Made by a program: the position numbers and the translations under genes
In this document: piece after piece, positions 6,235 through 63,331 of the stretch
How the letters are laid out: every line of letters begins with the position of its first letter
Numbering within the stretch: position 1 is the first letter of the stretch
Assembly (NCBI RefSeq): GCF_030445035.2
Contig: NC_080695.1
Span: forward strand, 51,415,954 to 51,479,953
Direction: 5' to 3'
From: Dasypus novemcinctus
Taxonomy: Eukaryota; Chordata; Mammalia; Cingulata; Dasypodidae
DNA: 64,000 bases
Notes under the pieces: model-generated
What the model was told of the DNA's origin: nothing
Seen by the model: only the letters and a program-made list of their open reading frames with translations
Database searches by the model: none

Positions 6235-6252
6235 GCCCCACGTTGGGCGCCA
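6235..6252 (-). promoter_or_regulatory. Primer binding site for tRNA-Lys
   Basis: Eighteen bases reading TGGCGCCCAACGTGGGGC on the minus strand are complementary to the 3' end of the lysine tRNA with CUU anticodon, including CCA. They lie 2 bp from the LTR edge. A lysine primer is usual for betaretroviruses such as MPMV. The full tRNA partner sequence is seen at 62714-62789. Confidence 0.93.
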
Positions 6253-6392
6253 ATTGTGGGACGTGGGGGTCCTGGGCAGGGGGAAGAAAGCCTCGTGCGG
6301 CCATGGAGGCTTCCCTCGGGGGCTCTGAAGGCGTGGAGGGCGCGCAGACCAGAAAAGCGAGATGCGGAGACAGGCTGATAGCACAAGTCTGC

Positions 6393-6398
6393 TTTATT
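6393..6398 (-). terminator. LTR poly(A) signal AATAAA
   Basis: AATAAA on the minus strand, 18 bp downstream of the TATA box. It is conserved in the second LTR at 62966-62971. Confidence 0.7.
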
Positions 6399-6415
6399 GC
6401 AGAAGGGGACACAGC

Positions 6416-6421
6416 TTTATA
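6416..6421 (-). promoter_or_regulatory. LTR TATA box
   Basis: TATAAA on the minus strand within a stretch shared with the second LTR (62989-62994). Confidence 0.7.
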
Positions 6422-6731
6422 GGGTTAGGGACTGCGTGGAGAGATTTGATAGGTGCGGGCGGGTACTGCTTCCTGATAGGTGATTGTAAGCAGTTGCTAG
6501 GCAGAGGGCTGGCTGAGAGGTTAGGAATAGGGGAGGGGAAAGGGGAAGTGAGAGCTGGCCGGATGTTGGGCTAGGCGGGAGATAGAAAGGGGGAGGGCAG
6601 CGCCGGCCAGCCGTTAGCAGCAAAGGCTTAGTCAGGCATGGTCACCTTATCTAGGCCCAGTGGGCAGAGGCGGTATCACTTCTTGCCACACTGTTTGCTA
6701 CTGTGGCAAGCCGGGCGCCCTTCCTCCCACA

Positions 6732-17432: not shown

Positions 17433-17989
17433 TTTCCCTGATGCTAAAGATATCTAAGTCCTTGTTGTATTGTGACTGTGCCTATCATTTTTGCAAGAGG
17501 CAGCTCAGATCACATGCAAAAACACCTGTGAAAGAATGAACAATGCCATCAGAAGAGGGGTGGACCAGCAGGTAGCTGAGGGCATGTTTGAAAGGGCTCA
17601 AGAATGGATGCAACTCCAATTTCAGCTCCTGAAGGTAACCTGCATCCAAAACCAGGGGGTGCACTATGGCATGGAAGAAGCAAGGACTGAGGCTGGAAGA
17701 AATAGTCATTATGTGGGTTCATATAGAGCTGGATGACTTCTGCCAAGTGGGCCTGACATGCCCAGGGGGCAGGAGAGGAGGCCTGCCAGCGCTTGCCATT
17801 CTTGCATCACGGCAGTGCTTGCTGGAGTTGGGCTATCTTCTGGGGCTGTGGCTTCATAAACAAAGTCTCCTCATGTCTCCTGTGCTCATCCTGTGTAAAG
17901 AGTCATCGATGTAACAATCCTGGTGACACCTGGTCCTGTGTCTAGGACTTGAACTCTCTTCATCAACTAGTTCATCTTGGCCCCCAGCA

Positions 17990-19254: not shown

Positions 19255-19410
19255 CCAAAGTAACATGGCTTAATGGCTTGTTTGTTGGGAGACTTGTGTT
19301 CAAGTCCCTGTTAGGCCCAGAATTAATATGACCTTTGACAATTCCTAAACATCTCTAAGATTTCATTCCTCATATCAAAATGAGGGAGAGAAACTAGATT
19401 ACTTCAAATT
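19255..19410 (+). mobile_element. MIR relic
   Basis: Contains 'gagacttgtgttcaagtccctg', 'gacctttgacaa' and 'catctctaagatttcattcctcatat' in MIR order. Mirrored at about 60770-60930. Confidence 0.7.
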
Positions 19411-21955: not shown

Positions 21956-21959
21956 TCTA

Positions 21960-23265: not shown

Positions 23266-23269
23266 AAAT

Positions 23270-24940: not shown

Positions 24941-24949
24941 AAAAAATAA

Positions 24950-26380
24950 CTTGATATAGTCACAGCTCATAAAACTAAAACTGTACCCATATTCTATTTT
25001 TTACCTTGAGCTTTGATATAGGCCTTCTCTGCCTTTGCTACAAAATTATTACAGTAGTATTGTCAACTATAGTCTATGAGTGACATTAGTTATATTTTCC
25101 CCATGTATCACTATATTCTTAACACTTTGTAGTAGAGTAACATTCTTGTATTTGTATTATTAACCACAATTCTCATCTACAACTGAAATCATTATATTAT
25201 TCAGTCCCTAGGTTATCCTCCAGCAGTCTTTCAGTTAACATTAACCTCCATAGATGACTCCTTTCAGTCACAACATTTATAAACCTGCAGTGTTAGTTAT
25301 ACTCATTTTAATGTTTTACCATCAATTCTACCTCAGTCCACATATTTACAATCCCCCTTATTAAACATTCTACATACATTTAGCATCAGATGACCACCTG
25401 AATGTCCCTCAAATACTTTTCTTGTGCCTCCATGCCAAAGAGGGTCACCACTAAGTAGCTAGCTGTCCAAGCAAGAAACCTGGGAACATCGTATTTTCTC
25501 CTCTGTACTCTTACTCCCAAATCCAACCAGTCATTTGTTCTGCAGATTTCACCACCAGAATCCCTCCCTGGTCTATCTTCCTCAGTTCATGCCCACTACC
25601 ACTTCCCAGTATTGGCCTCATCCTCACTCTTGTGGACCTCTGTGCTCAGTTCCTAGCTATTCTCCTTAATTCCAGTCTTGCCTACTGAGATTCATCCACA
25701 CCAGGCACCTGAATTGTCTGTTAATCTGCACAGCTCAACAGGTACCCCTGCCTCATTTACCATTACTCATTTTGAAGTTTCTTAGTGATATAAACTCATT
25801 TGTCTTTACCTTTCCCCATTTTTGCTCAAGGTCTTTTTTCTAGTTGCATTGTTAATTGGTGCTTGGTAGTGATCCATTGGTGCCAGGGAGTCTCACCCCC
25901 AGGAGTCATGTCCCACCTTGAGGGAAAGTAGTGTATTTGTATGCTAAGTTTGGCTTAGAGAGAGGCCACATTTGAACAACAAAGAGGCCCTCAGGAGGTA
26001 ACTTTTAGACAATAACACTACACTGAGTTTCAATTTCACAAGACAAGGTTCTTTAGTACAATCATCAGTATCAAAGGTCAGACACAGTAGTCCATCCTCC
26101 TTAACCAAGCACCACCCCTGTCTCAGGGGTTCTTACTGTCTCATTAGAGAATGTAGTAGTATTTCCCAGTGTGTCAATTGGATGTTCTTTCAGTTATTGT
26201 TTAGATCTCCACAGACTGTGATAATGCCCCTTGAGCACCTGAGCACATTCAAATGCCTTAACACCATGCTTCAGGTGAACCCCCTCACATACATTCCACC
26301 ATCACTCCCCTACCACAACTGTGATCCTTTTGTGATCCAAAACCTGTCCAAAGATGAAGCCAAGAAAATAACTAAATAAA
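24950..26380 (-). mobile_element. Probable L1 3' UTR-type sequence
   Basis: AT-rich text with 'ctacaactgaaatcattatattattcagtccc' and a later block with 'atgtcccaccttgagggaaa'. The words resemble lineage-specific L1 3' UTRs elsewhere in the window, but the assignment is tentative. Confidence 0.45.
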
Positions 26381-26589
26381 AGGAATAAGAAAATGAAATA
26401 ATAATGAGAGTTTTAGAAATAACACAAAATACAAAATTTGTTTAAAAAATAAAAAGAAATTTAAATAATAAAAAATATATATTTTTAGACATTCTGTCTT
26501 TCAGCCCTGTAAGATTTGTTGTCTTATATGTACAGTCACATATTCTTCCATATAGTCCCCCAGTGACTTTTTACCTTTTCACTTTATCT

Positions 26590-27135
26590 TGAAAGAACCT
26601 TTAGTTACAGAAAAGTCATATATAGAATATAGGGGATTCTTATACACCCAATGCCCTTCCCATTTTCCCTTCCCCCCATTATAACATTTTAGATGTAGAT
26701 GGTTTATTTTTTACAATTGATGTACAAATATTGAAGCATTGCTTTTAACCATGGCCCATGGTTTACATTAAGATTTACATTTTGGACTGTACACTTTTAT
26801 GAATTTTGATGAAATTTGTAAACTACAATGTAAACCACTATCCATGTGGTGCATCAGTGCTCCAAACTGTATTCACCAAATGCAATGTTGTGCCATGATG
26901 ATGAAAGAGGTTGTTGATGTGGGAGGAGTGGGGTGAGTGGGGTGGGGGATATAATGAGACCTCATATTTTTTTAATGTATCATTTAAAAAAAACAAGAAG
27001 GAAAATTAATTAATTAATTAAATGGCCTGTATCCATTATTGCAAGATCATGTAGGACAATTCCAATACTGCAATAATGCCCTATGAAGACTCTATTCTAG
27101 GCTTCCCTCCATCTCTCCTCAGGCATTATGGTAAC
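26590..27135. mobile_element. L1 3' UTR fragments, mosaic
   Basis: About 26590-26815 matches the second subfamily seen at 8.42 kb in minus sense. About 26815-27010 is a plus-sense fragment of the gaggtcccc family ending in an A-rich tail and (TTAA)n. The first subfamily then resumes to about 27135, so the second inserted into the first. Confidence 0.7.
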
Positions 27136-29149
27136 CACTAAGTCTCACTTTTTGAAGAACAAATTTCATCATTACTTGCAATAATATTGAGGGCTTGAAA
27201 TATTGGTCTCTCTTTTAGTAGCCACTGCCTATGTTCTCAGGGGACTCTTGCCCCTCTACTTGGGAACTTTGCATGACTATCCAGGATGGGAATTCAATAT
27301 TTTCCAGTTTATTGTCTGGGGAGCTGCCCAATGGTACAACACAATATGACAAGATGGATACTTACATATTCCATAGAAACCTCCCCCAGGTGCACCCTGT
27401 CTTGTATGCACCCCCATATCCAACATCCTATACCAGTAATTCTCCCCTGAATATTTACCAACACATTCCCAACATTGTAGTTTAAACCACAGACCTTCAA
27501 ATCCCCAGAGTTCACCTGCTCCTCCCCCTGTGTTCAACTGATTGGATGGGACTCCTCCCATGGTTGAAGGCAATCTCCTCAGTTATTTGTGGATGTAACC
27601 AGCACTAGATGCAATCAAGTGATAGCTTAATTACACAAAATACTCTAACAAGCAGGCCAGTGCTTGCTTGACTGCACAACAGCACAGCATAAGCTAGCTA
27701 AGTCCTCACATGGGCTGAACCACCACAGGCACCTATGCACAGAAGGGGAGACTGAGGCCCAGGGTGGGAAGGAGGGCCTTGTCCAAGATCCACAGTGGCT
27801 CCTCTCTTGGGAATGCATTTGTGGCTTCAGAGTGTCTAGCCAGCATTCTGTCTGCATCACAGAAGGGTGCTCATGGTTGGACTCTTCCAGAAGTGGGCAA
27901 ATTAGAGAAAACTCATTTCATAGAACTGTCAAGGGTCCCATGGGGGAAAGCAGGAACCCAGCCTGGATGTTTCTGTGCAACACTGTCCACTTTTCCCTTG
28001 GGAGATAAGGTGAGTGCCCATGAGCCTTAGAGCAGCATTCAGTGTCCTCATGGCCTGTTCCTGCACAGCACACATACCATCCTCAAGGCATATGTGATTT
28101 CCACATTCCTCCTTCCTCCCATTCATCAACAATCATTCTATTACATCCCCAACCTGAGCCAGAGAAAACTGGAGATTCAAGTCTGAGACTCAAGGAGCAT
28201 GTGCCCTGGCCCTTTTCCTCTATGTTGTAAGTCCCTGTGTAACACTTTCTCTGCTAGTCTAAGGATAAATATATGCTCATCTGTCCTGGACCATCCATGG
28301 ATTGCTCCTTCTTGACCTTCATGTTGAGCTCTGTGTTCTCAGCACCTGGCACTACATCTGGCACAGAGCTGGTCTGAGGAATATTTCTTGACTGAACAAT
28401 TATTGGATCATTCTACTTACCATTAAGGGTAAGGGAAAGTTGGCTTTCAACTAGTTGACATGCCAGTGGAGAGGAAAGGAGGACAGGTGAGCCAGGGGCA
28501 GCCCTAGTCCCTACTGTCCAGGGACATCCAGGTTGGAGGGAGAACCCCACAATGAAATAGGGAATCTTTACTTCTGTCCTGAACCATGGGACTGTGCATG
28601 CTAAGAGCAGCACTGACTCAGAGGTGCAAGTGACTCTCCGTGCCCAGGGCTGGTACAAGTGCATTACAGGAGTTGTAAATTGACCAGGAGCAGTGAGGGT
28701 GAGAAGTTCAGGAGGCCGGAAGTGGAGGTCATGCCAGTTGGGAGAAATGGCATGTGCAAATGTGCCAGGCAGGAGACTTCAAGTCCTTTGTGTGGTGGGA
28801 AGTTACAGGGTGGTCTGCAGGGAGGGGCATGCAGGGCTGGATCACTAAGGGCCTTAGTGAGCACTGGCTCCTCCTGCCCATAGGCTCCCTCCTCATCCTC
28901 AGGCTGCAGAGCCTCCTTGCCCTGGTGCTCATGGACAGCCTGGTACAGTCCATCATCCACAGCCAGGACCTGGACATGCTCCAAGCTATGGTGGCTCCCA
29001 GGCACTATGAGCTCCAAGTCCCCATACATTGATGGGAAGGAATATCTCTCTAGAAATCTTTCTACTCTTCTTTTAAACATAATAGACTTTTCAGCTTTAG
29101 AAAAAAATAGAGAGAATACATTCCTACACATGTGGCTTCTCCTTGCAAG

Positions 29150-30200
29150 AAATAGACCAATATTGATACAATTTTTGTAATCAAAACCCATAGTTCACAT
29201 GAGGGTTCACTCTTTGTGTGAACAGTCACGGGTTTTGACAAATGCATCATGCCATGTATCCAGCAATCCATGATCCTACAGAATAATTGTACTGCCCTAA
29301 TAATGCACTGTGCTCCCCCAGTCATCCCACCCACCCAGCCCCCCAAAACCACAGGAACCACTGATCTCTTTACTGTCTCTATAGTTCTGCTTTTTCCACA
29401 GGGTCATGTAGTTGGAATCACACAGAACTGAGCCTTTGCACACTAACTACTTGCATTTAGCAACAGGCCTTGAAGGTTCCTCCATGATTTTTGTGGCTCG
29501 ATACCTCATTTCTTTTGTGTGTGTGTATGTGTCTTTATTTATTTTTTTTAATATTACTTTAAAAAAATATGAGGTCCCCATACACCCCCCACCCTTCTCA
29601 CCCCCCTCCTTCCCCCATAGCAACAATCTTTTTAATGCTGAAATACATGCCATTGTAGGGCTGTGTAGTTTGCTTATCCATTTACTATGATTGGGCATCT
29701 TGGTCACTTCCACTTTTTGGCAGTAATAAATAAAGCCACTGTAAACATTCCTGTGCAGGTTTTGTCATGGACATGATTTTCAACTCTTTGAGGGAATAGC
29801 TTGGAGTGTGAATGCTGGGTCCCATGGTAAACCTCTACCCAGCTTCATAAGAAACTTCCAAACTGTATTCCAAAGTGACTGAACCATTTTGCATCCCTAC
29901 CAGCAACGAATGATTACTCATGTATCACCACATCTTCACAAGAATTTGTTGTTGGAGTTCTGGATTTCACCCCATCGCCTGGAGTATATATTGGAATCGA
30001 ACTGCTTGAATCTGCAAGCCCTTAGTGATTTATGATGTTAAACATCTTTTCTTACACATTTACCATCTACATACCTTCTTTGTTGAAGGGTCTGTTTCAT
30101 TTTTGCTGTTTTCTAATTTCAATGTTTTCCTATTATTGAGTTTTAAGGGTTCTTTGGATATTTTGGTCTTTGGAGCTATTTATACGTCTGTATCAAATAT
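29150..30200 (-). mobile_element. L1 3' region
   Basis: Complement of L1 3' text including 'gggtcatgtagttggaatcac', 'ccaaactgtattccaaagtgac' and 'aaacatcttttcttacaca'. Mirrored in arm B at about 55210-56160 on the plus strand. Confidence 0.8.
29533..29630 (-). mobile_element. Short 5'-truncated L1 insertion, arm A only
   Basis: Poly-T plus about 70 bp of the gaggtcccc tail interrupts the older L1. Arm B (about 55770) has the uninterrupted older sequence. Confidence 0.8.
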
Positions 30201-32055
30201 TTCAGTAAAGACAAGGGTCCCACATGGCAACATCTGGCACTGCAGTCATGTCGGATGAAGCAATCCCAGAGCAATGCTGGGAAGGTAAAGCCTTGTCTGA
30301 CACACTCTCTGGATTTTGGGGTTCAGTGCACAGGTTGGCATGCTCTCTGTGGAACACTATCACACCAACTCTGTGCTAGTCAGCTTTTGTCACATCCTGA
30401 TGACAGGCCACAGAGAGGAACCTGAGTGGGACATCACACACTGGTGCCTAAATTAATCAGCAGATATTTTTTCATGTTTGATGCTACACTGGGATTGGAC
30501 AGCAGGGACACTGACGTGGCCGAGGTTCACTACCTTTGTGTCCCTGCTCTCCCACACCTGTGCTGGGGAACCCTTCTCCCCATGAGCTCAGGAGAATGAG
30601 CACCCAGACAGGCTGGCCATGGGAGCCTCCAGACCATGTGTCCTTGTCCTGGTAACTGGCTGCTCCCATCTGCTGGCCGAGTCCTCCCTCTCCATTTGCC
30701 TGAGTCCCAGCTGCTGGAACAGGCCCCATGCGAGGCACCCTCCTAGTGGAGCTCAGCACAAGCTCTCCATCCATGGCATCACCTCTAGCTCCCTTCGGGC
30801 TCCTGAATGTCCAGCCCCAGCCCACACTACATGCATAGGCACCCTCATCTCCTGGTAGCCCACCCAGGAGCCTGTTGTCAGAGAGTGGGCACACCACCAA
30901 TCTGGGCTGTCTTCATCACTGTCCTGGAACACAGCAGATGCCCAGTTCTGTGGGTCAATCTCACATCCCTGGGGACCCCTCATGTCCCCAGACAACCCTG
31001 TCCAGGTCCTCCTGCCACACCAAAGTCTTTCTGGGTAGCTCTGACCACAGCCTCTTTGATTGGGCAGAGGCTCACTGTGTTACCCTGGTCTCTCTGTACT
31101 GACATATTCTGGGACCCCGTGTCTCTGCAAGGCCCAGGATGAGGAGGCTTTTGCTGCAGATACTAATCAACTACCCAGACTCATCGAGCCCAGCACATCC
31201 ACAGAGGGTCACAGGTCCAGATCTCTCTGGGTTTTGCTGATGAGCCTGAAGACCTGACTCTGACCCCTGAGAAGGGCTCCTTGACCAGACCAGGCTGTCT
31301 GGCCTGAGAGAAGGACCATGCTCAAGAGCAGCTTTCCCTGCCATGTGAGGAGCAGTAGCATGGGAGGTTCAGGTGGCAGGCAGTGCCTGTCCCTCAGGAT
31401 ACAGCTTACCTGGTGGAGTGTCAGGATGGTTTCACAGCCTTGGGGAAAACAAAATAAACTCAAGAAATGGCCTGTACTCTTCATGGTGTGAAGGCAGCCT
31501 AGGGGACTGAAATGTTAAGAAGCACTTGGTCTGGCTACCAGATAGAGCTTTCTGTCACTGAGGAAGGTTGGCATTGTAATGCCTGAGATCTTAACTGTCA
31601 GGACAGATTTCCCCTGAAAGTAAGTGTGGGCTTCCATTGACAAGGTCCTCCTTACTGCTCCTTTCAAAGTCTCAGGGCTGGTAGGAGAGGAGTAATCTGT
31701 GATCCTGGCCACCAACTTGGGAGGACAAAAAGGCATGAACCGAGCCATATCTCCCCATGGCCAATGGTCAGACTGGGCTGGGTGTGAGCACGAAGCAGCA
31801 GCACAGGTTCTCGGGGATGAGGCAGGCTCGGTGGGATAGTGGCCTCCAGAGGGAAGCCAGGATGGGTGGGAGCACATTCCAGGTGGGGAGCTACAGGAGC
31901 ACAGTCATGGGAACAGGGGGGCCCAGGAGAGGACTGAGGGGTGAGAGCCATCTGGTGTCAGGGTGCAGGGCCTGGGGTTGGTTAGCAGGACCCAGCTGCC
32001 AGGCCCTGAGGCCTAGGATTTGCCTTTTATGTAGAGAGCCCAACACTTACCAAAT

Positions 32056-32155
32056 GCTTTTTTTTTTTTTTTTTTTTTGGCAGGTTCCTGGGATTGAAAC
32101 CAGGACCTCTTCATGGGAATTAGGTGGTCACCCACTGAGCTACACTCACTCAATG
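32056..32155 (-). mobile_element. Short tRNA-derived SINE, shared by both arms
   Basis: A T21-type tail followed by about 75 bp with 'gggattgaaaccagga' (complement of a B box) and 'tgagctac'. Mirrored at about 53330-53430, so it predates the duplication. Confidence 0.75.
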
Positions 32156-32259
32156 TTTGACTTTTCAAAATCCCTCGAGCAGCCCATGAAAGGGCCCCGG
32201 ATGCCAAGAGCAGGGCAGAGGTAAGACTCTGCCCACTTCAGCCATCACAGAGCATTGAA

Positions 32260-32590
32260 ATTCCAGCATCTTTATTGAGCACTGATGGTAAACTAGTCCT
32301 TTGTTAACCATTATAATCCTGCCTTTATAAAGTTAGAAAACTGGTGCTCAGAGTGTTCAAACCCTCAACATACCACTTTTTAGTGGTGAGAACTTGGTCA
32401 AGTTCTTTTAGCTCTCTGTACTTCAGCTTCTTTATTTATATTAAAAGAGGGCAATACACTCTGGCTTTCAAATTGTTTTGAGGATGAAGGAAGTTCAAGC
32501 ACTCTAAAGTTAGTGCCTGACGTATCCTAAACTTGCAATAAGTATCAGTGATTGGTATCTGTATTGTGATATTTTGTGATGACTTGTGCA
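32260..32590 (+). mobile_element. MIR-type relic
   Basis: Contains 'cttggtcaagttcttttagctctctgtacttcagcttc' and 'tgaggatgaaggaagttcaa' in MIR order. Mirrored at about 52900-53220. Confidence 0.7.
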
Positions 32591-34543
32591 GGGTCTGCCT
32601 GCCCATCTCTAAGCTGTCAGCTCCATGGAGAAAGAACCTTCTCCAATTTTTCTCCCCATCTCTGGGTTATAACATGGTGGTCCCCTGGAAGGACTAAAGA
32701 AATGAGGCAATGATGGATGAGTTGCTTAGCCATAACTTCACTTACTGATAACAATCATGGCGGAGGGGCCAATAGACCTGAAGTCAGAAGCACTTGGTTC
32801 TAGTCCCTTCCCTACCACTATCTTGGATCGATTTAATCTAAACAAGATCTAAGGCTACCACTGTCACCAATCCTCCGCATTTGCCTTCAGCCAAGCCTGA
32901 CCAAGCTCCAGCTCCATGTACGCGCCACTGCTTGGATGTAGGATGGCTTCTGAAGACTTGGCCCTGCCACCATCAGTGGCCTCACTTGGTGTTCTTGCAA
33001 CAATCATCTTAAACACCTCTCCCCAATGGCTTCTGAGCTCCCCAAGGGCAGGATCCAGTCCCACTCAGCACTGAATCCCAGTGCCCAGTGTGTGCCTTGT
33101 GCACAAAAGGGCTAGGCGGGGTTCGAATGTATAAAGCATGTCTACCCCTTGGAAGTCCACAAGAAGGAGTGAGAAGAGGAAAAGAGCTGGCTGTGATTTA
33201 AGGGCATGAGTATTATAATAAATGGACCTGAAATGTTCTATGGAAACTTGGAGGAGGGAACTATTCATCTGCCTGGGGAATGCCAGGGAAGACTTCTTAG
33301 AAAAGGTGACAAATGAGCTTTGTTCTATATGATGTGGCAGAGGGCACAACTTATGCCTGATGGATGGTAGACAAGGTGATCCTTCAGCACTGACATTCAG
33401 TGACTCTGGAAGTTTGAGATCTTATTAGGCAAGACACATACCAAGGAGGAAGCTCATCTCAGTGCCATTGACTTCTCTTTCATCCAGGGATCCAGCCAAG
33501 GGCAGATGTAGTGGATGAGGACAAGTGTGATGACATTTCAAGGAACTGATCAAATCTCAGGAGGTGGAGAGCCAGGAGTACCTGTTCTTCTGTGTCCCAA
33601 GCTGACTCCTCCTGTGTCCAGGATCAGACATGACACTAGGGATGTTGCAGAGACCCTGGGAACCTCCAGGATGCAGGCATCCCTTGAATCACCACTCCTG
33701 AACCTCAGAAGTCACCCTTGTCTTATTGTCAGCAATGATTTTTGGGAGATGCACAGATAAGATCACTTGGAAATCACATGCACCTATGGACATGGGTTCA
33801 AACAGTCTGTGGGCACCCATTCTTGGCCAAGTTCTGTGTTGCTCAGTAATTTGGTTCAAGAAGCAGGGGCCCAGGCAAACTAGTTCTTGGAGCCCTGGGG
33901 TAAGAATAGAGCAGATGACAGTGGGACAAGACTGAGACAGCAATCCAGGAGTGGGAGTGAGTTTATGAAGATCCCACAGCCCTGCCCAGGGCTGATTTGA
34001 GTTATATTCAATGTTACCTCCATCACCTTCCTGTTTATTCCATGTCTATATCTGTGAATTCAATCTGTTACACAAGACTATGGGGTTTGCAGTGTTTGCC
34101 CCACATTGACTTGGCCATGCCCAGGAAGCAGATGCTAGAATGATTCCCAGTGTATTGGGCAGGAGAGTTGGGAAGCCTCAGAAACTAGTGTGGTGTCACA
34201 AAACTGAAAAGAAAAGGGAGTCAGGTCCGCACCCAGGTGCGTCTCCTCCTAGCCGGGCCCGAGCTGAACACCGGCCTTCCAGGAAGCTGTGGGGAGGGAC
34301 GTGTGGGCAGAACTTTGACCACTTAACAAGATGATTTGGGTGAGGGGGATAGACAGACAGACATGCAGAGGGAGTTTTGTGGAGTTTTTAGTCCTGAGAG
34401 GGCACTGGGAAGGGGACTGAAGGAGGTGACCTCACTGCCTTTGTCACAGACCCAACAGAACTTGGAACCCTGGTAACCAGGCCCCAGATGCCAGAGGCAG
34501 CCCCTTCCCAGCTCACTTGGCAGGAGACGCTCGAGAGAGCAGG

Positions 34544-50655: not shown

Positions 50656-51652
50656 TCTTTTTTTTTTTTTTTTTTTTCCTTTTTTCTTAATTGATTTTGT
50701 AATAATATTACATTAAAAATATATATATATGAGGTCCCATTCAACCCTACCACCCCCACCCCACCTCTCCCCCCCACCAGCAACACTCCTTCCCATCATC
50801 ATGACACATCCATTGCATTTGGCAAGTACATCTTTGGGCACCTCTGCACCTCATGGTCAATGGTCCACATCATGGCCCATACTCTCCCCCATTCCATCCA
50901 GTGGGCCCTGTGAGGATTTACAATGTCCAGTGATTGCCCCTGAAACACCATCCAGGGCAGCTCCATGTCCCAAAGACGCCTCCACCTCTCATCTCTTCCT
51001 GCCTTTCCCCATACCCATCAGCCATCATGTTCACTTTTCTCAATCCAATGCCACCTTTTCTATGTGGACATTGGATTGGTTGTGTCCATTGCACCTCTAT
51101 GTCAAGAGGAGGCTCAGATTCCACATGGATGCTGGATGCAATCCTCCCACTTTCAGTTGTAATCACTCTAGGCTCCATGGTGTGGTGGTTCTCCTCCTTC
51201 AACTCCATCTTAGCTGAGTGTGGTGAGCCCAATAAGTCAGATTGTAGGTGCTGGAGTCTGTTGAGGCTCAGGACCTGGCTATCACATTGTCAGTCCAGAG
51301 ATTCAAATCCCCTAAATATATCTTAAACCCCAACACTAACTGCACCTCCAGCACATTAGCATGAAAGTCTTATGAAGAGAGATCCCATCTGAGTCAAGAT
51401 TCATCACACATAAACACCAGCTCCAAAGAGGGGCCATCTGACCTGGTAGTTAACCCCATCGGCCATGACCATAACTCCCATGGGTCTCTTTAGCCCTCGA
51501 AGGAACCGATATCTGGGGGTTGTATCTGCTTTATCTGTCTCTCAGACTCTGCTCAGTTGTGCATAAGGGCAATCCTTCTGACAGCCTCCAGACTCTTTTT
51601 TAGAGACTCGTAGCCATATAAACTCATTTCTCCTTTCCATTTCCCCCTGGGC
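50656..51652 (-). mobile_element. L1 3' UTR insertion, arm B only
   Basis: T21 run at 50658, the 'gaggtcccattcaaccc' tail and about 1 kb of 3' UTR body. Arm A homology resumes on both sides (33836 and 33858), proving a post-duplication insertion. Confidence 0.85.
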
Positions 51653-52899
51653 AACGTAGAATTTGACCAAGAGTGGGTGCCCAGGGACTTTTGAACCCAT
51701 GCTCATAGGTGAATGGGTTTTCCAAGTGATCTTATCTGTGCATCTCCCTAAAACCATTGCTGACAATAAGACAAAGGTGGCTTCTGAGGATCAGGAGTTG
51801 TGATTCAAGGGGTGCCTGCATCCTGGAGGTTCCCAAGGTCTCTGCAACATCCCTAGTGTCATGTCTGATCCTGGACACAGGAGGAGTCAGCTTGGGACAC
51901 AGAAGAACAGGTACTCCTGGCTCTCCACCTCCTGAGATTTGATCGGTTCCTTGAAATGTCATCACACTTGTCCTCATCCACTATGTCTGCCCTTGTCTGG
52001 AACCCTGGATAAAAGAGAAGTCGATAGCACTGAGATGAGCTTCCTTCTTAGTATTTATTTTGCTTAATAAGACCTCACACTTCCAGACTGAATGTCAGTG
52101 CTGAAGGATCTCCTTGTCCTCCATTCATCAGGCATAAGGAATGTCCTCTGGCACATTCAGTGGGACAAAGCTCATTTGTCACCTCTTCTAGGGAAATTTC
52201 CCTGGCATTCCACAGGCAGCATGAACAGTTTCCTCCTCCAAGTTCCCATAGAACATTTCAGGTCCATTTATTAGAATACTCATGCCCTTGAATCATGGAC
52301 AGTTGTTTTCCTCTTGTTGTTCCTTCCTGTGGACTTCCAAGAGGTTGTCATGCTTTATCCATTCAAACCCCTCCTAGCTCTGGTGTACACAAGGCACCTG
52401 CTGGGCACTGGGATTCAGTGCTGAGTGGGACTGGATCCTGTCCTTGGGGAGCTCAGAAGCCATTGGGGAGGGATGTTTAGATTCCCTGCAGCAAGAACAC
52501 CGAGTGAGGCCTCTGCTGATGGCAGGACCGGGTCCTGGGAGCCATCCTGCATCCATGCAGAGGAGCCTACATGGAGCTGGAGCTTGGTCAGCCCTGGCTG
52601 AGGGCAAATGTGGAGGCTTGGTGGCAGTGGTAGCCTTAGATCTTGTTTAGGTTAACTCAATCCAAGACAGTGGTAGGGAAGGGACTACAAAGAGTACTCC
52701 TGACCTCAGGTCTATTGGCCACTCCAGCATGATTGTTACCAGTAAGTGAAGTTATAGCTAAGCAATTCATCCATCATTTGCCTCATTTCTCTAGTCCTGC
52801 CAGGGGCCCACCATGTTACAGCCCAGAATTGGGAAAAAAATTGGAGAGGGTTCTTTCTCCATGGAGCTGACAGCTTAGAGATGGGCAGGCAGACCCTGC

Positions 52900-53225
52900 A
52901 CAAGTCATCACAAAATATCATAATATAGATACCAATCACTGATACTTACTGGGAGTTTAGGATATGTCAGGCACTAACTTTAAAGTGCTTGAACTTCATC
53001 ATCAAAACAATTTGGAAGCCAGAGTGTACTGCCCTCTTTTAATATAAATAAGGAAGCTGAAGTACAGAGAGGTAAAGGAACTTGATCAAGTTCTCATCAC
53101 TGAGAAGTGGTACACTGAGGGTATGAACACTCTGAGCCCCAGTTTTCTAACTTTATAAAGGCAGGATTGCAATGGTTAACAACAGGATTGGTTTAGCATC
53201 AGTGCTCTATAGTGATGCTGGAATT
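52900..53225 (-). mobile_element. MIR-type relic (arm B copy)
   Basis: Reverse complement partner of 32260-32590. Confidence 0.65.
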
Positions 53226-53329
53226 TCAATGCTCTGCGATGGCTGAAGTGGGCAGAGTCTTACCTCTGCCCTCTTCTTGGCATCCTGGGCCCTTTCATGT
53301 TCTGCTCAAGGGATTTTAAATAGTCAGAC

Positions 53330-53432
53330 ATTGAGTGAGTATAACTCAGTGGGTGACCACCTGTTCCCCATGAAGAATTCCTGGGTTTAATCCCAGGAAC
53401 CTGACAAAAATAAAAATAAAAAAAAGCATTTG
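53330..53432 (+). mobile_element. Short tRNA-derived SINE (arm B copy)
   Basis: 'taactcagtgggtgaccacc' followed by 'tgggtttaatcccagga' and an A-rich tail. Partner of 32056-32155. Confidence 0.75.
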
Positions 53433-55209
53433 GTAAGCTTTGGGCTCTAAATAAAAGGGAAATCCTAGGCCTCAGGGCATGGCATCTGGGTCCTCCTGAC
53501 CACCCTAAGGCCCTGTACCCCTGCACCAGATCGCTCTCACCCCTCAATCCTCTCCTGTGCCTCCCTGTTCCCATGACTGTGCTCCTGTGTTTCCCCACCT
53601 GGAATCTGTTCCTACCCCTGCCACCCTCCTTCTGGAGGCCACTATCCTGCTGAGCCCACCTTATCCCCGGGACCCTGTGCTGCTTCTTCATGCTAACACC
53701 CAGCCCAGTCTGACCATTGGCCATGGTAAGAGATGTCTCAGTTCATGCCTTCTTGTCCTCCTAAGTTGGTGGCCAGGATCACTGAGTACTCCTCTCCCAC
53801 CAGCCCTGAGACTCTGAAAGAAACAATAAGGAGGACCTTGTCAACGGAAGGCCACACTTGCTTTCAGGGGAAAATCTGGCCTTTCAATTAACATCTCAGG
53901 TATTACAATTTTCCAACCTTCCTCAGTGACAGAAAGCTCTATGTGGTAGCCAGATTAAGTGCTTCTTAACATTTCGGTCCCCAAGGCTGCCTTCATACCA
54001 TGGAGAGTACAGGACATTTCTTGTGTTTATTTTCTTTTCCCCAAGGCTGTGAAATCGTCCTGACACTCCACCAGGTAAGCTGTTTCCTGAGGGACTGGTG
54101 CTGCCTGTCACCTGAACCTCCAGTGCTCCTTCCCCCACATGGCAGGGAAAGCTGCTCTTGAGCCTGGTCCTTCTCTTAGGGCAGACAGCCTGGCCTGGTC
54201 AAGGGGCCATTCTTATGGGTCAGAGTCAGGTCTCCAGGCTCATCAGCAAATCCCAGGAAGATTTGGCCCTGTGACCCTCTGTGGATGTGCTGGGCTCGAT
54301 GAGTCTGGGTTGTTGATTAGGCTCTGCAGCAAAAACCACCTCATCCTGGGCCTCGCTGAGACACGGGGTCCCAGGATGTTTCAGCACAGAGAGACCAGGG
54401 TAACTCAGTGAGCCTCTGCCCAATCAAAGAGGCTGTGGGCAGAGCTACCCGGAAAGACTTTGGTGTGGCAAGAAGACCTGGACAGGGTTGTCTGTGGACA
54501 TGAAGTGGTCTGGAGGGATGTGAGATTGTCCCACAGAGCTGGGCATCTGCAGTGTTCCAGGACAGTGAAGACAGCCCAGATTATTGGTGTGCCCACACTG
54601 ACAACAGGCTACTGGGTGGGCTTCCAGAGAAGACGGTGCCTACCCATGCAGTGTGGGCTGGGAATGGACATTTTGGAGCTCCAAGGAAGCTAGACATGAT
54701 GCCCCTGAGAGCTTGTGCTGAGCTCCACTAGGAGGATGGGAGTGACCAGTTAGCAAGACAAGGACACATGGTTGGAGGCTCCCATGGCCAGCCTTCCTGG
54801 GAGCTCATTCTCCTGAACTTGTGGGGAGAAGGGCTCTCCAGCACAGGAGTGGGGGAGCAGGGGGGAAAAGATGTTGTGCTTGGGCCATCTCTGGGTTCCC
54901 AGGGAGGCCTTTAAGGGATCCATTTCTTGCTGTCCATCCCCAGTGTAGTATTTACCTGCTGATTAATTTAGGTGCCGGTATGTGATGTCCTACTCAGGTT
55001 CTTCTCTCTGTGGCCTGATATCAAGATGTGACAAAAGCTGACTAGCACAGGGTTTGTGTGATAATGGCCCACAGACAGCATGCCAAACCATGCACTGAAT
55101 CCCCAAATCCAGAGAATACGCCAGGCCAGGCTGTACCTCCCCAGGATTGCTCCGGGGTTGCTTCATCTCACATGACTGCTGTGCCAGTTGTTTCCACATG
55201 GAACCCTTG

Positions 55210-56165
55210 TCTTTACTGAAATATTTTAAACTGACTTATAAAGTGTTGCAAAGACCAAAATATCCAAAGAACCATTAAAACTCAATAATAGGAAAACAAT
55301 GACATTAGAAAAAGACCCTTCAACAAAGATTGCATAGAGATGGTAAGTGTGTAAGAAAAGATGTTCAACATCATGTGTCACTAAGGGAATGCAGATTAAA
55401 CAATTCCATTAAACTATACTCCAGTCAATGGGCTGAAATACAGAACTCTGGCAACAAACACTGGTGAAGACGTGGTGCAAAAGGAGCACTCATTCATTGC
55501 TGATGGGGCTGCAAAATACTTCAGTCACTTTGGAACCCAGTTTGGCATTTTCTTACAAAGCTGAATAGAGGCTTACCATAGGACACAGCATTCATACTCG
55601 TTATAATTTCCTCAAAGATTTGAAAATCATATCCATGCTAAAACCTGCACAGGAATGTTTACAGTGGTATTATTAATAACTGCTAAAAATTGGTAGTGAC
55701 CAAGATGCCCAATAATACTTAATAGATAAACAAAATGCACAGCCCTACAATGGGGTATATTTCTGCATTAAAAAGAAATGTGTTGTGAAGCCACAAAAAT
55801 CATAGAGGAACCTTCAAGGCCTGTTGCTAAATGAAAGTAGTCAGTCTGCAAAGGGTCAAAGCTCTGCATTTCCAACTACATGACCCTGTGGAAAAAGCAG
55901 AACTATAGCGACAGTAAAGAGATCAGTGGTTCCTGTGGTTTTGGGGGGCTGGGTGGGTGGATGACTGGGGGGAGCACGGTGCATTATTAGGGTAGTGCAA
56001 TTAATCTGTAAGCTCATGGATTGCTGGATACATGGCATGATGCATTTGTCAAAACCCGTGTAACTGTTCACACAAAAAGTGAACCCTCATGTGAACTATG
56101 GGCTTTGGTTACAAAAATTTTATCAATATTGGTTCATTTCCTGCAAGTTAATATTAAGAGAAACT
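55210..56165 (+). mobile_element. L1 3' region (arm B copy)
   Basis: Plus-sense partner of 29150-30200, with 'gaacattaaaactcaa' and 'actttggaacccagtttgg' text and no internal short L1 insertion. Confidence 0.8.
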
Positions 56166-56241
56166 GCATGTGTAGGGGTGGTATAGAGGAACTCTGCTTT
56201 CTTGGTATTTTTCCTGTAAAGCTGAAAAATCTATTATGTTT

Positions 56242-57391
56242 AAAAGAAGATGTAGATGTAGGCACTCTCGGTTCCCTGGTGACTGACCATCTTTACTCCC
56301 TGTTAGCTGACCTGGGTTAAGTCCAATGAACCAGAGAGTAGTAGTTCCAACTCTGCTGAGGCTCAGGACTCAGCTGCAACATGGACAGTCCAGAGATTCA
56401 AGTCTCCTGAGTATACATCAACCCTAGCACCAACCACCGGTTCAGTAAAAGTGAAAGAAGAGGCATGTGTAGTAAGGTCACATCTTAGTCCAACTCCAAT
56501 CACACTCAGAAATACAAATTCCAAAGTAGGGTTCACTGACATGGCACTGAACTCCAGAGCCATGTGCCATGCCCTGTGGGTCTCTGAAGCCCTCAGGAGA
56601 ACCAGTACCTGGGATTGTACTTACTTTGGCTGTCTCTGGGTTCTCACTGAGGCGTGAGTAACCCCGACCCCTCTGATGACTTCCCAACTCTTTTTTGGAA
56701 ACTTTTAGTAATACCAACTCTTTCGTCTTTGCCATTTTCCACTTTTAATTCAAGGTCAAAAAGAAGTTGTTGTTTTTTCTTTATTTTTTTTTTAATATTA
56801 CATTTAAAAAATATAAGAGGTCCCCATATACCCTCATCCCCATCACATCACCCCACTCCTCCCACATAAACAACCTCTTTCATTATTGTGGCACATTCAT
56901 TGCATTTAATGAATACATTTTGGACACTGATGCACCACATGGATAATGGTTTACACTGTAGTTTATACTCTCCCCCAGGCCACACAGTGGGCCATGGCGG
57001 GACATACAATGTCCAGCAACTGTCCCTTTAGTACCACCCCGCAAAACTCCAAGCCCTGAAAATGTCCCCACATATTTCTTCTTCCCTCTCCCTACCCTCA
57101 GCAGCTACCATGAACACTTTCTCCACATCAGTGCTACAATTTCTTCCATTACTAATCACACTAGTTCCATAGTACAATATCAATAAGTCCACTCTAGTCC
57201 ATACTCTATTCCTCCATCCTGTGGAACCTGGGATGGTTATGTCCACTCCATACCTGTATCGAGAGGAGGCTTAGATTCCACATGGATGATGCATGTAATT
57301 CTCCTGCTTGCAGTTGTAGGCACACTTGGCTCCATATTAACTTCAAAAAAGATATTAAGGAAATAAAATAAAATTAAAAAAAAAAAAGAAG
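56242..57391 (-). mobile_element. Two adjacent L1 3' UTR blocks separated by target-like repeats, arm B only
   Basis: AAAAGAAG occurs at 56242-56249, 56759-56766 and 57384-57391. The block 56250-56757 matches the upstream part of the L1 3' UTR seen at 51.23-51.65 kb. The block 56767-57383 matches the terminal part with the gaggtcccc tail and poly-T at about 56773. Arm A has no insertion here (29.07 kb). Confidence 0.7.
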
Positions 57392-59189
57392 TGGTAGAAA
57401 GTTCCCTAGAGATATATTCCTTCCTAACTATTTTATGGGGAATAGGACCTCAGTGCCTGGGAGCCACTGTAGCTTGGAGCATGTTCAGGCCCTGGCTGTG
57501 GATAACAGGCTGTACCATGCTGTCCATGAGCACCAAGGCAAGGAGGCTCTGCAGCATGAGGATGAGGAGGGAGCCTGTGGGCATTGGGAGCCAGTGTTCC
57601 CTAAGGCCCTTAGTGATCCAGCCCTGCATGTCCCTCACTACACACCACCTTCTAACCTCCCCCCACACCACACAAAGGACCTGCAGTCTTCTACCTGGCT
57701 CATTTGCTCAGGCCATTTCTCCCCCATAGTGTGACTTTCCTTCCTTTCTGCTGACCTCCTCCTCACCCTCCCTGGTCCAGTTTAAATGTCAACACTGTAA
57801 ATCACTCACACGTACCCTGGGCATGGAGAGTCACTTGCAACTCTGAGACAGTGCTGCTCCTAGCATGTCCAGCCCCATGTTTCAGGAAAGAAGTAATGAT
57901 TCCCTATTTTGGTTGGGATTCTCCCTCCAACCTGGATGTCCCTGGACAGAGGGCTGCACCTCACTCACCTCTCCTCCCTTCCTCCCCAATGGCATGTCAA
58001 TTACTTGAAAACCAACTTTCTCTAATCCTTGATGGTGAGTAGAATGCTCCACTAACTGTTCAGTCAAGAAATATTCCTCAGACCATCTCTGTGCCAGATG
58101 TGGGGCCAAGTGCTGAGAGCACAGAGCTAAACATGAATGTGAAGAAGGATGGTCCAGGACAGTTGAGCATATATGTATCCGTAGACCAGGAGAGAAAATG
58201 GTCACAGAGAGACTCACAACATAGAGAAAAAAAGCAAGTGCACCTGCTCCATGAGTCTCAGACTCGAATCTCCAGTATTCTCTGGCTCAGGTTGGGGATG
58301 TAATAGAGTGATTGTTGATGAAGTGGGAGGAAGGAGGAATGTGGAAATCTCATATGTCTGGAGGATAGCATGTGTAATGGGTGGGTACGGATCACGAGGA
58401 TACTGAAGGACATTCTACAGCTCATGGACAGGAATGTCCATGGGCTCCTGAGGGAAAAATGGACAGTGTTGAGAAGAAGCATCCAGATCAGACTTCTGCC
58501 TCCCCCATTGGACTCTTGACAGTTGACAAAAATGATTTTTTTCTAATTCCCCAACTTCTTGGAAGAGTTAAACCATGAGCAGCCTGCTGTGAAGCAGTCA
58601 GAATGCTGGTCAAACCCTCTGAAGCCAAAAGTGTAATCCCATTAAAGGAACCACTGTGCATCTTGGAAAAGTCCCTCCTTCCCACCATGGGCCTCAGCCT
58701 CCCCTTCTGTGCATAGCTGCCTGTGGTGGTTCAGCTCATGTGAGGACTTGGCTAGCTTATGCTGTGCTGTTGTGCAGTCAAGCAAGCACTGGCCTGTTTG
58801 TTAGAGTATTTTGAAGATTGAAGCTATCAGTTAATTGCATCTAGGGGTGATTACATTTACAATTAACAGAGGAGATTGCCTTCAACCATGAGAGGAGTCT
58901 CATTGAATCAAGTGAACACAGGGGAAGGAGCAGGTGAACTGCAGATTTGCAGGTCTCTGGTTTAACTACAATTTTGGAAATGTTCTTTTGGCAAATATGA
59001 AGGGGAGGATTACTGGTATAGGGTGTTGGATGTGGGGGGTATAAAAGATATGGTGCACCTGCAGGGGGGCGTCTGTGGAATATGTAAATGTTCATCTTGT
59101 CATATTGTGTTACATCAGTGGGCAGTGCCTCACGCAATAAACAGGAAAATATTGAACTCCCATCCTGAGAGTCATGAAATGTTCTTTTA

Positions 59190-59870
59190 ATCATCAAATG
59201 GAGATGCTGAAATTTCCAACTGCAACGTGAGTCTGGCTAACTTTACATTTAGTTCTAGCAATGTTTGCTTCATGTATTTTGAAACATTGTTATTTGGTAT
59301 GTAACTATTTAGGATTATGTCCTCTTGATGATATAACCACTTTTTCACTATAAAATGGTCTTCTTTACTCCTAGTAAATCTTCTTATTCTGAAACTTATT
59401 TCATATGATATTTTTAAAAATATATTTTTTATTTTTTAAAAGATACTTAGATTTTATAAACCTTACATTAAAAATTAAGGGGATTCCTATATGTGCTGCT
59501 AACCACAACTCCCTCAACTGATATTAATTTTCAGATTAATATTCCAAAGTATATATATATATATATATACATTTCTATTCTTTGGCTTTTACTCTAGCCA
59601 CATCTTTTTACTTAAAGTGGGTTTCTTATAGATAACATATAATAAAAGGGACTTGCTTTTTTATCTAACCTGATCATCTCTGCCTTTTAGTTGGTGTCTT
59701 TAGAATTTAGATCATCTGGCTGTTTTCTATTTGTACTTTTAGGTTTTCATTACTTTTGTCCTCTTTTGATGACTTTTTGGGGAATTGAGTATTTTTCCAA
59801 TATTGCATCTCCTCTCCTTCATTGACTTGTTAGATATATCATTTGATTTTTTAATTATAACTCTAGGGCT
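59190..59870 (-). mobile_element. L1 ORF2 fragment (arm B copy, truncated)
   Basis: Partner of 20300-20998; the continuation seen in arm A is deleted here. Contains a (TA)n run at about 59550-59568. Confidence 0.7.
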
Positions 59871-60769
59871 TATAATATACATCTTTAACTTATCACAGTC
59901 TATTCGAGTAATATTAACTCACTTTATAACTGGTATAAAGTATCAACTATTGAACCCTTACAAGAATATATTTCCATTTCTCCCCTCCTGGTCTGTGTTC
60001 TACTGTCACCAAATGTTTTAAACCTCACTAGGTGGGTCAACAATGGCCTTACATCTAGAGCTATTTTGGCTCCTCTACTGAGGCCCTCTCCTTGATGTTG
60101 TGTGTGTAAAGAGGCCTTTGTGTGGGCTGCTCTGAGCTGTGTGGTTCCACATGAGCTGTGTGGACTGCTCTGCCTGTTCCTTTGGGTGGTTTGTTCCCCA
60201 TCCATGGTTGTTTCCTCTCATGCATGTACTTATCAAACACTCAAGGGGGACTCCTTCATATCTCTGGAGCTTTCACTCTGTCCAGCTCTCTCCTCAATGG
60301 CACACTATCCTGTGAATTCTAATCACCTTGGCTCCCCAAAATTTTGAATTCTGCTCATCTCAGGGAGAGCACCAGGCTCTATTTGGTTCCCCTCTCCCAG
60401 TGCTATGGCCTAGAAAATCTCTCTAGGGCTCATCTTGTTTGTCTATCTTCTTTCACTGTCCTGTGCTGACTATTATCCAATGTAGGAAAACTGCTGTTCC
60501 ATAACTTGTGTCCATTTGTAGTTGTTTAAGGCAACTGGACCCTGTGACTGTATTATGGCTGATAGAATCTTCCACATCCCTAACTTGTATAGGAAAAGCA
60601 AAACTATGCCAACAGCAATAGAACTGTATTTGTTTCTAAGTTTAAAATGAAAAGGAATAAAATTCCTAGATCCACCTCCATGGCTGAATCCATTTTTAGT
60701 TTACTTAGATAAAGATATTAAAACAAAGAGGAAAGGGTTTATAATCTTATTTGTTTAAAGGGGTCAAAA

Positions 60770-60930
60770 CTTTTGAAATAATCCAGTTCATCTCCCTCAT
60801 TTTGAATATGAGGAATCAAATCTTAGAGAAGTTAAGGAATTGTCAAAGGTCACCTTAATTCTGGGCCTCACAGGGAGTAGAACACAAGTCCCCCAACAAA
60901 CAAGCCATTAAACCATGTTACTTCTGTCGT
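60770..60930 (-). mobile_element. MIR relic (arm B copy)
   Basis: Partner of 19255-19410. Confidence 0.65.
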
Positions 60931-62692
60931 GCCCAGAAATATTATTATAATTACCATTTTCTTTAGCACTTTAAAATATTACTTAAACATCCTGACAACC
61001 CTAGTAGCATCAGGGTATGTAGAGCTATTACCACCTCTTTTCAGTTAAATAACCTGATTAATGACTTGTCTAAGACAGCAGTGCTCAAATTTTAGGCTCT
61101 GAAGCTCCTTTAGGGAATCTGCTAGGTCAAAACAATTTTTAGAAGAGTAAGTTATCATTTGACTTTTTTCTTTTTTTATCATGTTGACATTGGCACTAAT
61201 AGTGTAAAAGCAAAGATGGGTGAAACCCCTTGCATCTCAGCATTAATCAAGCCAATTACAACTAGGAAGTCTCTTTGGTCTTGCCCAGTGTTAACTTCCT
61301 ACATCTCTGTGGTTTAAGATAGATTGCACATGGTCAGTATAGTAATTTGTTTTTTCAAGGAATTGTTTTCTTTGGCACCTGAAGTTCCGATTTTATGTAC
61401 TACAATGGAACCGACCACTGTGGCGTTAAGCCTATTTTCTGCATGTACTTGTGGATTGTGGTAATTAGGTAAATGACTGCTACTGGGAAATGAAGTAACT
61501 CTTTGCTTCCTCCAAGGGAAATTACATGCTTTGTATTAAGGAAAAGTATGTTTTTCAAAGCTACAGTGGTGGGAGTAGGGGAAGGGATTGGGCAGAGGCA
61601 GATTTGGGATGCTACTGGATGCTGATTCAGAGGTATTCTAAACTAATGGCAAGTCAGGCTCCTTGAGTGTTTGGGAGAGACGAGATGATCAACTCAGCCT
61701 GGTCTGAGCAGACAAATTTGGAGACTCATGTCAACAGTAGCTTCGACTCTGACAAGGAATTTATATTTATATCATTTGGGGGATGGGCAGGCAAGCCCCA
61801 AGATCCTGAGCTGAGGCAAGATGGTCCAAACATACCTGACAGAAGTATTAGTTCAGAGGAAGCTGTTAGAAACTGTCTCCTGAAGGAGACAAAATGAATT
61901 CTAAGTTGATACACCATCACTGATTGACCTATAATCATTTATTGACATTTACTGAATGATTAAAATTTTATGTCAATAAGGGATTTCCTGCTTTAAAAAA
62001 ATTGGTCTTGAGATTTTGGTTATACTTGGGACCCAGAAGCCAGGTCACTTGGTCCCAAATCCTAGCTCAGCCATTAGCTGCAGGACCTGTGGATACACCA
62101 CTCTGTGCCCTAGTTTCCCTTATCCATGAAATGCGAACTGTAATATTACCCACATCTCAGAGCTGCTGGGGGCCGAGATGAACTAGCTGATTAAGAGATT
62201 TCCAGTCCTAGACACAGGACCAGGTGTCACCAGGATTGTAATGTGGATGACTCATTAGACAGGAAGGGCAAAGGAGACATGGAGAGACTGTGTTTCTGAA
62301 GCCACAGCCCCGGAAGAGAGCCCGACTCCAGCACACACTGCAGTGATGCAAGAATGGCAAGCGCTGGCAGGCCTCCTCTCCTGCCCCCTGGGCATGTCAG
62401 GCCCACTTGGCTGAAGTCATCCAGCTCTATGTGGACCCACATAATGACTGTTTCTTCCAGCTTCTGTCCCTGCTTCTTCCACACCATAGTGCACCCCCTG
62501 GTTTTGGATGCAGGTTACCTTCAGGAGCTGAAATTGGAGTTGCATCTGCTTTTGAGCCCTTTCAAACACGCACTCAGCCACCTGCTGGTCCACCCCTCTT
62601 ATGATGGCATTGTTCATTCTCTCACAGGCTTTTGTGCAAGTGATCTGAGCTGCCTCTGCAAAAATGATAGCCACAGTCACACTACAGCAAAG

Positions 62693-62698
62693 ACCTAG
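62693..62698. repeat. Target-site duplication ACCTAG, left copy
   Basis: Identical to 63326-63331. Arm A has a single related site (CTAAGT on its strand, near 17452). Confidence 0.92.
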
Positions 62699-62713
62699 TG
62701 TGGGAGGAAGGGC

Positions 62714-62789
62714 ACCCGGCTAGCTCAGTCGGTAGAGCATGGGACTCGTAATCCCAGGGTCATGGGTTCGAGCCCCACATTGGGCGCCA
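62714..62789 (+). pseudogene. Complete tRNA-Lys (CUU-type) sequence with genomic CCA, inside an LTR element
   Basis: 76 bp: full-length tRNA-Lys plus CCA. A box, B box (GGGTTCGAGCC), D, anticodon and T arms are all present. Differences from the usual gene visible here are A instead of G at position 1, anticodon CGT instead of CTT, and A instead of G in the T stem. The encoded CCA and its 2-bp distance to an LTR show it was copied from a mature primer tRNA, not a chromosomal tRNA gene. Confidence 0.9.
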
Positions 62790-62791
62790 GT

Positions 62792-63325
62792 TGCGTCTGG
62801 GGTTTGTTTAACCCCGACTCTGACGGGAGGGTCTGGAGGGGTCAGGCTAGACCGCAGCGGCATCTGAGGCTGCGGCAGACAGCCTCAGAGGGGCTCTCAG
62901 GTGTGGAGGACACACGGCAAGGGGAGGAAGAAAGCTGCGGAGACCAGGTCTGTGCGCAAGTCTGGTTTATTGCGGAAGGGGATATGGCTTTATAGGGTTA
63001 GGGACTGCGTGGAGAGATTTGATAGGTGCGGGCGGTTACTGCTTCCTGATAGGTGATTGTAAGCAGTTGCTAGGCAGAGGGCAGGGGGAGAGGTTAGGAA
63101 TGGGGGAGGGGAAAGGGGAAGTGAGAGCCAACCAGATGTTAGGCTAGGCGGGAGATAGTGGGAGGTGACCGTTATTGATGTATCTTGCCCGGGTAGGCTG
63201 AGGGCGCTTCGCCCGTACCAGGCTGAGGGCGTGGTCGCCCATTCCAGCCACCCTGAACTGTGGCTTCAGGCTGTGCACACGCCTGTTGCCAGGTCAGCTT
63301 AGCAATGGTGGCTCGCACTCCCACA
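62792..63325 (-). mobile_element. Solo LTR related to the 6.3-kb provirus (534 bp)
   Basis: Starts TG at 62792 and ends TCCCACA at 63325. The core around TATAAA (62989-62994) and AATAAA (62966-62971) to about 63155 is nearly identical to the other LTR. U5 and distal U3 differ, and its own U3 begins TGTGGGAGTGCGAGCC, so it is a different subfamily. Confidence 0.9.
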
Positions 63326-63331
63326 ACCTAG
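63326..63331. repeat. Target-site duplication ACCTAG, right copy
   Basis: Pairs with 62693-62698. Confidence 0.92.

Follow-up and report, generated by a model that had tools for sequence, protein, structure and literature searches.

How could a whole tRNA and a retroviral LTR come to occupy a mammalian genome as one insertion? The window, the complete stretch of 64,000 nucleotides from Dasypus novemcinctus analysed here, contains such a unit near its right end (Table 1), which the earlier note read as the fusion of a whole primer tRNA with an LTR, integrated in one piece. Our analysis supports this reading. The described order of a tRNA-Lys with CCA, two base pairs and an LTR is borne out by ARAGORN, which calls a tRNA at 62714–62789, by Rfam (RF00005, 44.6 bits, 62714–62786) and by the positions of the spacer and LTR. 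The two-base gap equals that between primer site and LTR in the related provirus at ~6.25 kb, as had been claimed, its bases being AT there and GT in the unit. CCA is added post-transcriptionally to mature tRNA, and its presence therefore reveals that the tRNA copy originated from RNA. Three stem pairs of the copy (1-72, 7-66 and 49-65) are broken, each through a G>A change beside a C; the change at G1, which lies within the overlap described below, is probably the result of CpG decay.

Table 1 Features of the tRNA-LTR unit and of related sequences in the window
Feature	Position	Strand	Remark
LTR of related provirus	6255..6731	-	source type of the U3 tip
Primer binding site (PBS) of that provirus	6235..6252	-	ordinary, 18 nt, Lys1,2 type
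Empty target site ACTTAG	17454..17459	-	inverted duplicate (arm A)
Left target-site duplication ACCTAG	62693..62698	+	
U3 tip TGTGGGAGGAAGGGC	62699..62713	+	15/15 identical to tip of provirus LTR 6255-6731; inverted relative to the unit's LTR
8-base overlap of U3 tip and tRNA 5' end	62714..62721	+	now ACCCGGCT; GCCCGGCT in provirus tip
Complete tRNA-Lys (1,2 type) copy	62714..62786	+	ARAGORN, Rfam; anticodon now CGT
CCA	62787..62789	+	ends the tRNA copy
2-bp spacer GT, primer to LTR	62790..62791	+	
534-bp LTR	62792..63325	-	U5 end at 62792, U3 tip at 63325
Right target-site duplication ACCTAG	63326..63331	+	

The target site indicates that both parts entered together. The exact 6-bp duplication that had been noted encloses the tRNA as well as the LTR, and in arm A, the inverted duplicate of this region, the flanks of the unit are present with a single ACTTAG in place of a repeated hexamer, while the insert is absent. 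The claim that this is not a solo LTR beside a tRNA gene holds on the same grounds. A tRNA gene would lack an encoded CCA and be followed by a T run, whereas CCA is present here and the first TTTT lies at 63747, outside the unit. One might still suppose that a tRNA gene or a LINE-made tRNA retrocopy was already at the site and that the LTR landed beside it, as tRNA retrocopies with CCA are known in mammals. The location of the tRNA inside the duplication, the lack of either part in arm A and the continuation of all 30 genomic copies into NN-TG (see below) leave this explanation with next to no credibility. The two arms, spanning 17454–33846 and 51647–62698, are ~79–88% identical.

The composition given in the earlier note, tRNA-CCA-GT-LTR, was correct as far as it went, but it overlooked the U3 tip at 62699–62713, which provides the tRNA side with an integrase end. 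Both flanks of the unit thus carry a U3 integrase end, with tips that face outward and share an exact 8-bp inverted repeat. Within the window, the 15-mer of the left tip occurs only in the unit and in the provirus LTR, and the joined U3-tip/tRNA pattern has two matches, compared with none in 100 shuffles. The provirus U3 tip reads TGTGGGAGGAAGGGC-GCCCGGCT-TGCC and the tRNA-Lys start reads GCCCGGCT-AGC, so that the 8-base overlap begins precisely at tRNA base 1. Because the tip of the unit's own LTR diverges from the left tip beyond eight bases, the left tip derives from another LTR and a second template is needed, a requirement that counts against the mechanism proposed below. This is what would be expected if two different genomes had shared a particle; strand transfer between two genomes has been discussed for HIV-1 (PMC5651808). 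The same divergence led us to reject a simple fold-back within one LTR for this unit. We also rejected the idea that the 15 bases 5' of the tRNA are a pre-tRNA leader, as they are identical to the LTR U3 tip, and a derivation of the A-type U3 tip from tRNA outside the overlap, as 229 of 1000 shuffles score as high.

Like an ordinary solo LTR, the unit has TG...CA ends, one LTR and a 6-bp duplication. Unlike a solo LTR, whose two ends are U3 and U5, it also includes a tRNA and an additional U3 tip in inverted orientation, and its U5 end is internal, beside the tRNA. The TG...CA ends and the 6-bp duplication ACCTAG are those of a class II (betaretrovirus-like) LTR insertion. The related provirus, which occupies 1–6731 on the minus strand and extends past the left window edge, agrees with this class in having gag, RT, integrase and a Lys1,2-type PBS, its LTR matching that of the unit at 90% identity over the middle 226 bp only. 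Pfam places Gag_p24, RVT_1, RNase_H, rve and a TLV_coat-type env in separate reading frames of its minus-strand sequence (1–6250), and its tRNA match ends after the 18 nt of the PBS. A DAS-like SINE suggests that the host is an armadillo, a lineage from which an endogenous betaretrovirus has been described (Malicorne 2016, cited by PMC10536682 and PMC8877266). The CpG observed/expected ratio is 0.55 in the unit and 0.52 in the provirus LTR, against 0.16 in the window, and both therefore look young relative to their surroundings.

The LTR, the primer spacing and a complete cognate tRNA with its CCA, all present in the unit, are the elements of a read-through product. We favour the interpretation, with a probability of roughly 0.83, that the unit is an aberrant plus-strand strong-stop product, generated by tRNA read-through, a template switch to a U3 tip, and integration. 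Plus-strand DNA would have copied U3-R-U5, the 2-nt spacer and then the whole primer tRNA to its 5' end, past m1A58. The new 3' end, the complement of GCCCGGCT, would be positioned to pair with this octamer within the U3 tip of an A-type LTR, the switch template probably being RNA or plus-strand DNA of a co-packaged genome. Extension to the U3 terminus would create U3 att sites at both ends, and integrase would insert the molecule with a 6-bp duplication. Copying of unmodified tRNA reaches the tRNA 5' end, and extension proceeds past A58 in TRMT6-mutant cells (PMC13191261); MMTV-type integration has a spacing of 6 bp (PMC9410886). At other loci, the read-through end took different routes: a U5 tip, a second tRNA, snap-back onto the LTR, a raw end, or a tRNA end with a T before it, which makes the LTR end in CA.

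To place the unit in its genomic context, we searched the host assembly (3.61 Gb, 546 contigs; the window lies on contig C37) with the tRNA 3' half plus CCA, allowing ≤3 mismatches and setting no condition on downstream bases. The pattern matches 30 places, its reversed control none, and 30/30 continue as NN-TG into an LTR, for which the chance is 1 in 16 each. They reduce to 25 insertions in about nine LTR groups by pairwise similarity, or eight if L060 joins the window's group at 72%; a 26th insertion (L020), missed by the main pattern through a 1-base deletion, is excluded from all counts. Five of the places, all on C37, are the window insertion itself: they share flank and duplication and are 99.2–99.5% identical over 3 kb, and thus represent one event copied to five by segmental duplication. 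The flanks likewise occur five times on C37 at this identity, which dates the duplication of the region as recent. L054 and L055 belong to a single provirus, as its two LTRs. The earlier note had weighed a mobile family against a single aberrant event; the window insertion did happen once, but it is accompanied by 24 further insertions of the same kind, with different LTRs, junctions and targets.

The U3-tip/tRNA junction of the window unit is found at six places genome-wide, corresponding to two insertions, namely the five C37 paralogues and L062; the LTR, the tRNA start or the left side sets the other 23 insertions apart. Inheritance could also account for a junction common to two insertions. 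The unit might then be the solo LTR of a propagating lineage that already carried the tRNA and the second tip, the fusion being ancestral and mobilised later. Heritable tRNA-bearing LTRs do exist, as L054/L055 carry the tRNA in both LTRs, and L062 has the window's junction at another site. Given that the junction is limited to these two insertions, and that their LTRs are only ~89.6% identical over the aligned part, we regard an ancestral lineage as improbable and retain read-through with template switching as the explanation of the window unit.

The dinucleotide between tRNA and LTR is GT in the window's LTR group (L043, L062 and the C37 copies), CT in L042, L064, L066 and L067 with AA in the similar L047, GA in L057, L058, L059 and L065, and GC, AC or GT in the largest group (L039, L041, L045, L046, L053–L056 and L063). 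Ordinary PBS-NN-TG junctions number at least 3684 (≤1 mismatch), which makes read-through units a small minority; repeat counts in the assembly are lower bounds. Seven PBS/LTR junctions spaced ~3.5 kb apart at C1:59603414-59624376 form an apparent tandem array of proviral sequence. A Lys3 pattern matches eight places, including L075, a Lys3 unit that starts at about base 37-38, and one place inside unit L039. With ≤3 mismatches, no ordinary tRNA-Lys-CTT gene was recognised: all 14 places examined out of 15 are catalogued ERV-linked units, the 15th being C37:70615347, and such genes may be missing from the sequence searched. A pattern scan of IMG/VR, a collection that may omit records near the window's genome, gave 0 matches.

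On the tRNA side, the 25 insertions end in several ways. Three end in a U3 tip (the window unit, L062 and L043) and four in a U5 tip (L041, L059, L063 and L065). In two, the tRNA end is itself the LTR terminus (L053 and L054/L055), and three have the order LTR-tRNA-LTR, with a palindrome in L056, an inverted piece in L045 and a direct piece in L046. A second tRNA, Lys3, is found in L039, and the remaining 12 meet other DNA directly (L040, L042, L044, L047, L057, L058, L060, L061, L064, L066, L067 and L068). L056 (C47:132966638) is a palindrome of more than 1.2 kb in which LTR and internal sequence surround a central tRNA, the form that snap-back of a read-through strand would be expected to give. 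At L039 (C1:209430251), a Lys3 3' half is joined to a complete Lys1,2 tRNA and LTR, and a perfect 69-bp direct repeat flanks the whole.

Duplication state was assigned for 14 of the 25 insertions. Exact 6-bp duplications flank five: the window unit, L062 (CTGGTT, with the same architecture), L059 (CCAAAC), L065 (ATAGAG) and L054/L055 (ACTGGG). L063 has a 5/6 match and L040 two competing 6-mers. For L059, which has a second, more distant match, we chose the nearer one on the basis of what we take to be L1-like sequence running across that site. Weak six-base matches for L057, L058 and L066 were rejected as duplications, since either the start of the unit or the end of the LTR was out of place. 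Where a viral or CA tip goes together with a determined repeat, this repeat is ~6 bp in six units and of another kind in one. This exception, L043, counts against our preferred mechanism: it has U3 tips on both sides and yet is flanked by repeats of 198 bp, so that a 6-bp duplication does not follow from two U3 tips in every case. The junction of L043 differs from that of the window unit and consists of a 32-nt tip followed by the tRNA from base 17.

Such cases raise the question of whether host repair rather than integrase attached the LTR-tRNA molecule to a DNA break. In some relatives, tRNA ends adjoin other DNA either with long direct repeats (L039, 69 bp; L042, 73 bp; L064, 44 bp) or with no repeat found (L047, L066 and L067), and for a tRNA-Gly beside a provirus in an HIV clone, the authors gave an integrase-independent model as well (PMC12220202). 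For the window unit, the exact 6-bp duplication, the TG...CA ends and the empty site with one target copy make repair very improbable, and joining by integrase remains the favoured reading.

If the tRNA was copied past its modified bases, traces of those bases might be visible in the copies. We compared 25 tRNA copies with two Lys isodecoders, which were not seen as genes here; one of them is matched without mismatch by L046 from base 6 and by L040 from base 39. The comparison excludes positions 29 and 41, at which the two isodecoders are not identical, as well as the hand-set template-switched starts of L041, L043, L064 and L065. The 25 copies contain 41 CpG-type and 17 other changes. Position 58 is changed from A to T in 5/25 (L057, L059, L061, L066 and L068) against an expected 0.20 (P = 2.2e-6; 1.6e-4 after correction for 73 sites); as L057 and L059 belong to one LTR group, the number of events may be four. 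Base 58 carries m1A, the usual stop of plus-strand synthesis (PMC13191261), and reverse transcription leaves misincorporations at m1A58 (PMC9021294, PMC12140624). Judged from the sequences, the genome-wide A58>T excess is as would be expected from copying methylated RNA. In the window copy, base 58 is A and this footprint is absent, which counts against the proposed mechanism, as does the next most changed position: the non-CpG change G66>T in the acceptor stem of three copies (L065, L066 and L068) is not accounted for by the model. The tRNA ends near bases 37-40 in L040, in L075 and in the Lys3 part of L039, consistent with a stop at modified A37.

In one case, tRNA capture became heritable. 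L054 has the order PBS-GC-TGCCTGGCTAGC...tRNA...CCA-GC-LTR, and in L055 the same tRNA-bearing LTR faces other DNA instead. Over 1017 bases the two stretches show 2 differences, and ACTGGG lies at both outer ends. Two near-identical tRNA-bearing LTRs imply that the tRNA was in the RNA template, and the duplication suggests that the end ...GCTAGCCAGGCA served integrase; its final A could be one untemplated base added after the complement of G1. A tRNA-LTR terminus beside a PBS was found in L053 and L054 only, a third match being of another kind.

The LTRs of the largest group (L053/L041) end in TGCGGCGGCTTGCTCGGTCGGTAGAG or close to it. Bases 6-26 of this tip align ungapped to tRNA bases 4-24, with 20/21 identities in L053 and 19/21 in L041. 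The tip score was reached by 0, 1, 2 and 5 of 2000 shuffles for four of the six tips tested in this group, by 31 and 62 for the remaining two (L039 and L063), and by 488 to 1991 for 17 tips of other LTR groups. The commonest tip occurs at no fewer than 10,065 places (≤3 mismatches) and matches the tRNA at 19/21 by eye, the shuffle figures coming from other tips; it lay at an LTR edge in 5/5 copies viewed, with a PBS as neighbour in two of them and other DNA in three. On balance, we lean towards tRNA capture as a recurrent route to new LTR ends, in which L054/L055 integrated through a tRNA-made end and the U5 tip at ~10,000 places goes back to an older capture. An alternative is selection for pairing with the primer, since viral RNA at the tip would be complementary to the tRNA. 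In the LTR group with the tRNA-like tip, PBS-like sites are paired 59 nt apart (L032, L035; C1:4789664/4789723, 120365115/120365174, 123157975/123158034 and 123162587/123162646), with the U5 tip and tRNA 3' end repeated beside the PBS.

Several known products resemble these units in part. Full-length plus-strand strong-stop DNA of HIV-1 (P1), made on unmodified tRNA in vitro and in TRMT6-mutant cells, likewise copies the tRNA past A58 to its 5' end; it is described there as a dead end (PMC13191261), whereas the armadillo units switched template, integrated in the germline and recur. An MMLV circle with tRNA-Gly between its LTRs (Colicelli and Goff 1986, via PMC12220202) also keeps a primer-like tRNA at the U5 end, but unlike the window unit it is a cloned circle with a non-cognate tRNA missing four 5' bases, and has neither duplication nor inheritance. 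An HIV provirus beside a reverse-transcribed tRNA-Gly (PMC12220202) likewise has a CCA-bearing tRNA copy adjacent to a proviral end; that case is one cell clone, with a non-cognate tRNA that lacks five 5' bases and lies outside the integrase duplication. Junctions of HIV-1 2-LTR circles (PMC5618025) retain primer-derived sequence at the U5 end, in their case short primer/PBS remnants in unintegrated circles. Among the titles and abstracts listed from open-licence papers, we found no report of germline tRNA-LTR units.

The m1A58 modification is held to end plus-strand strong-stop DNA at the primer binding site. The loci described here would be a natural record of failures of this stop, with base 58 as a mutation hotspot and truncations close to base 37, and would reveal the later fate of the read-through strand. 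Should captured tRNAs turn into LTR ends, host RNA would supply new viral integration sites together with a longer complement to the primer. The search is applicable to any mammal with Lys-primed endogenous retroviruses.
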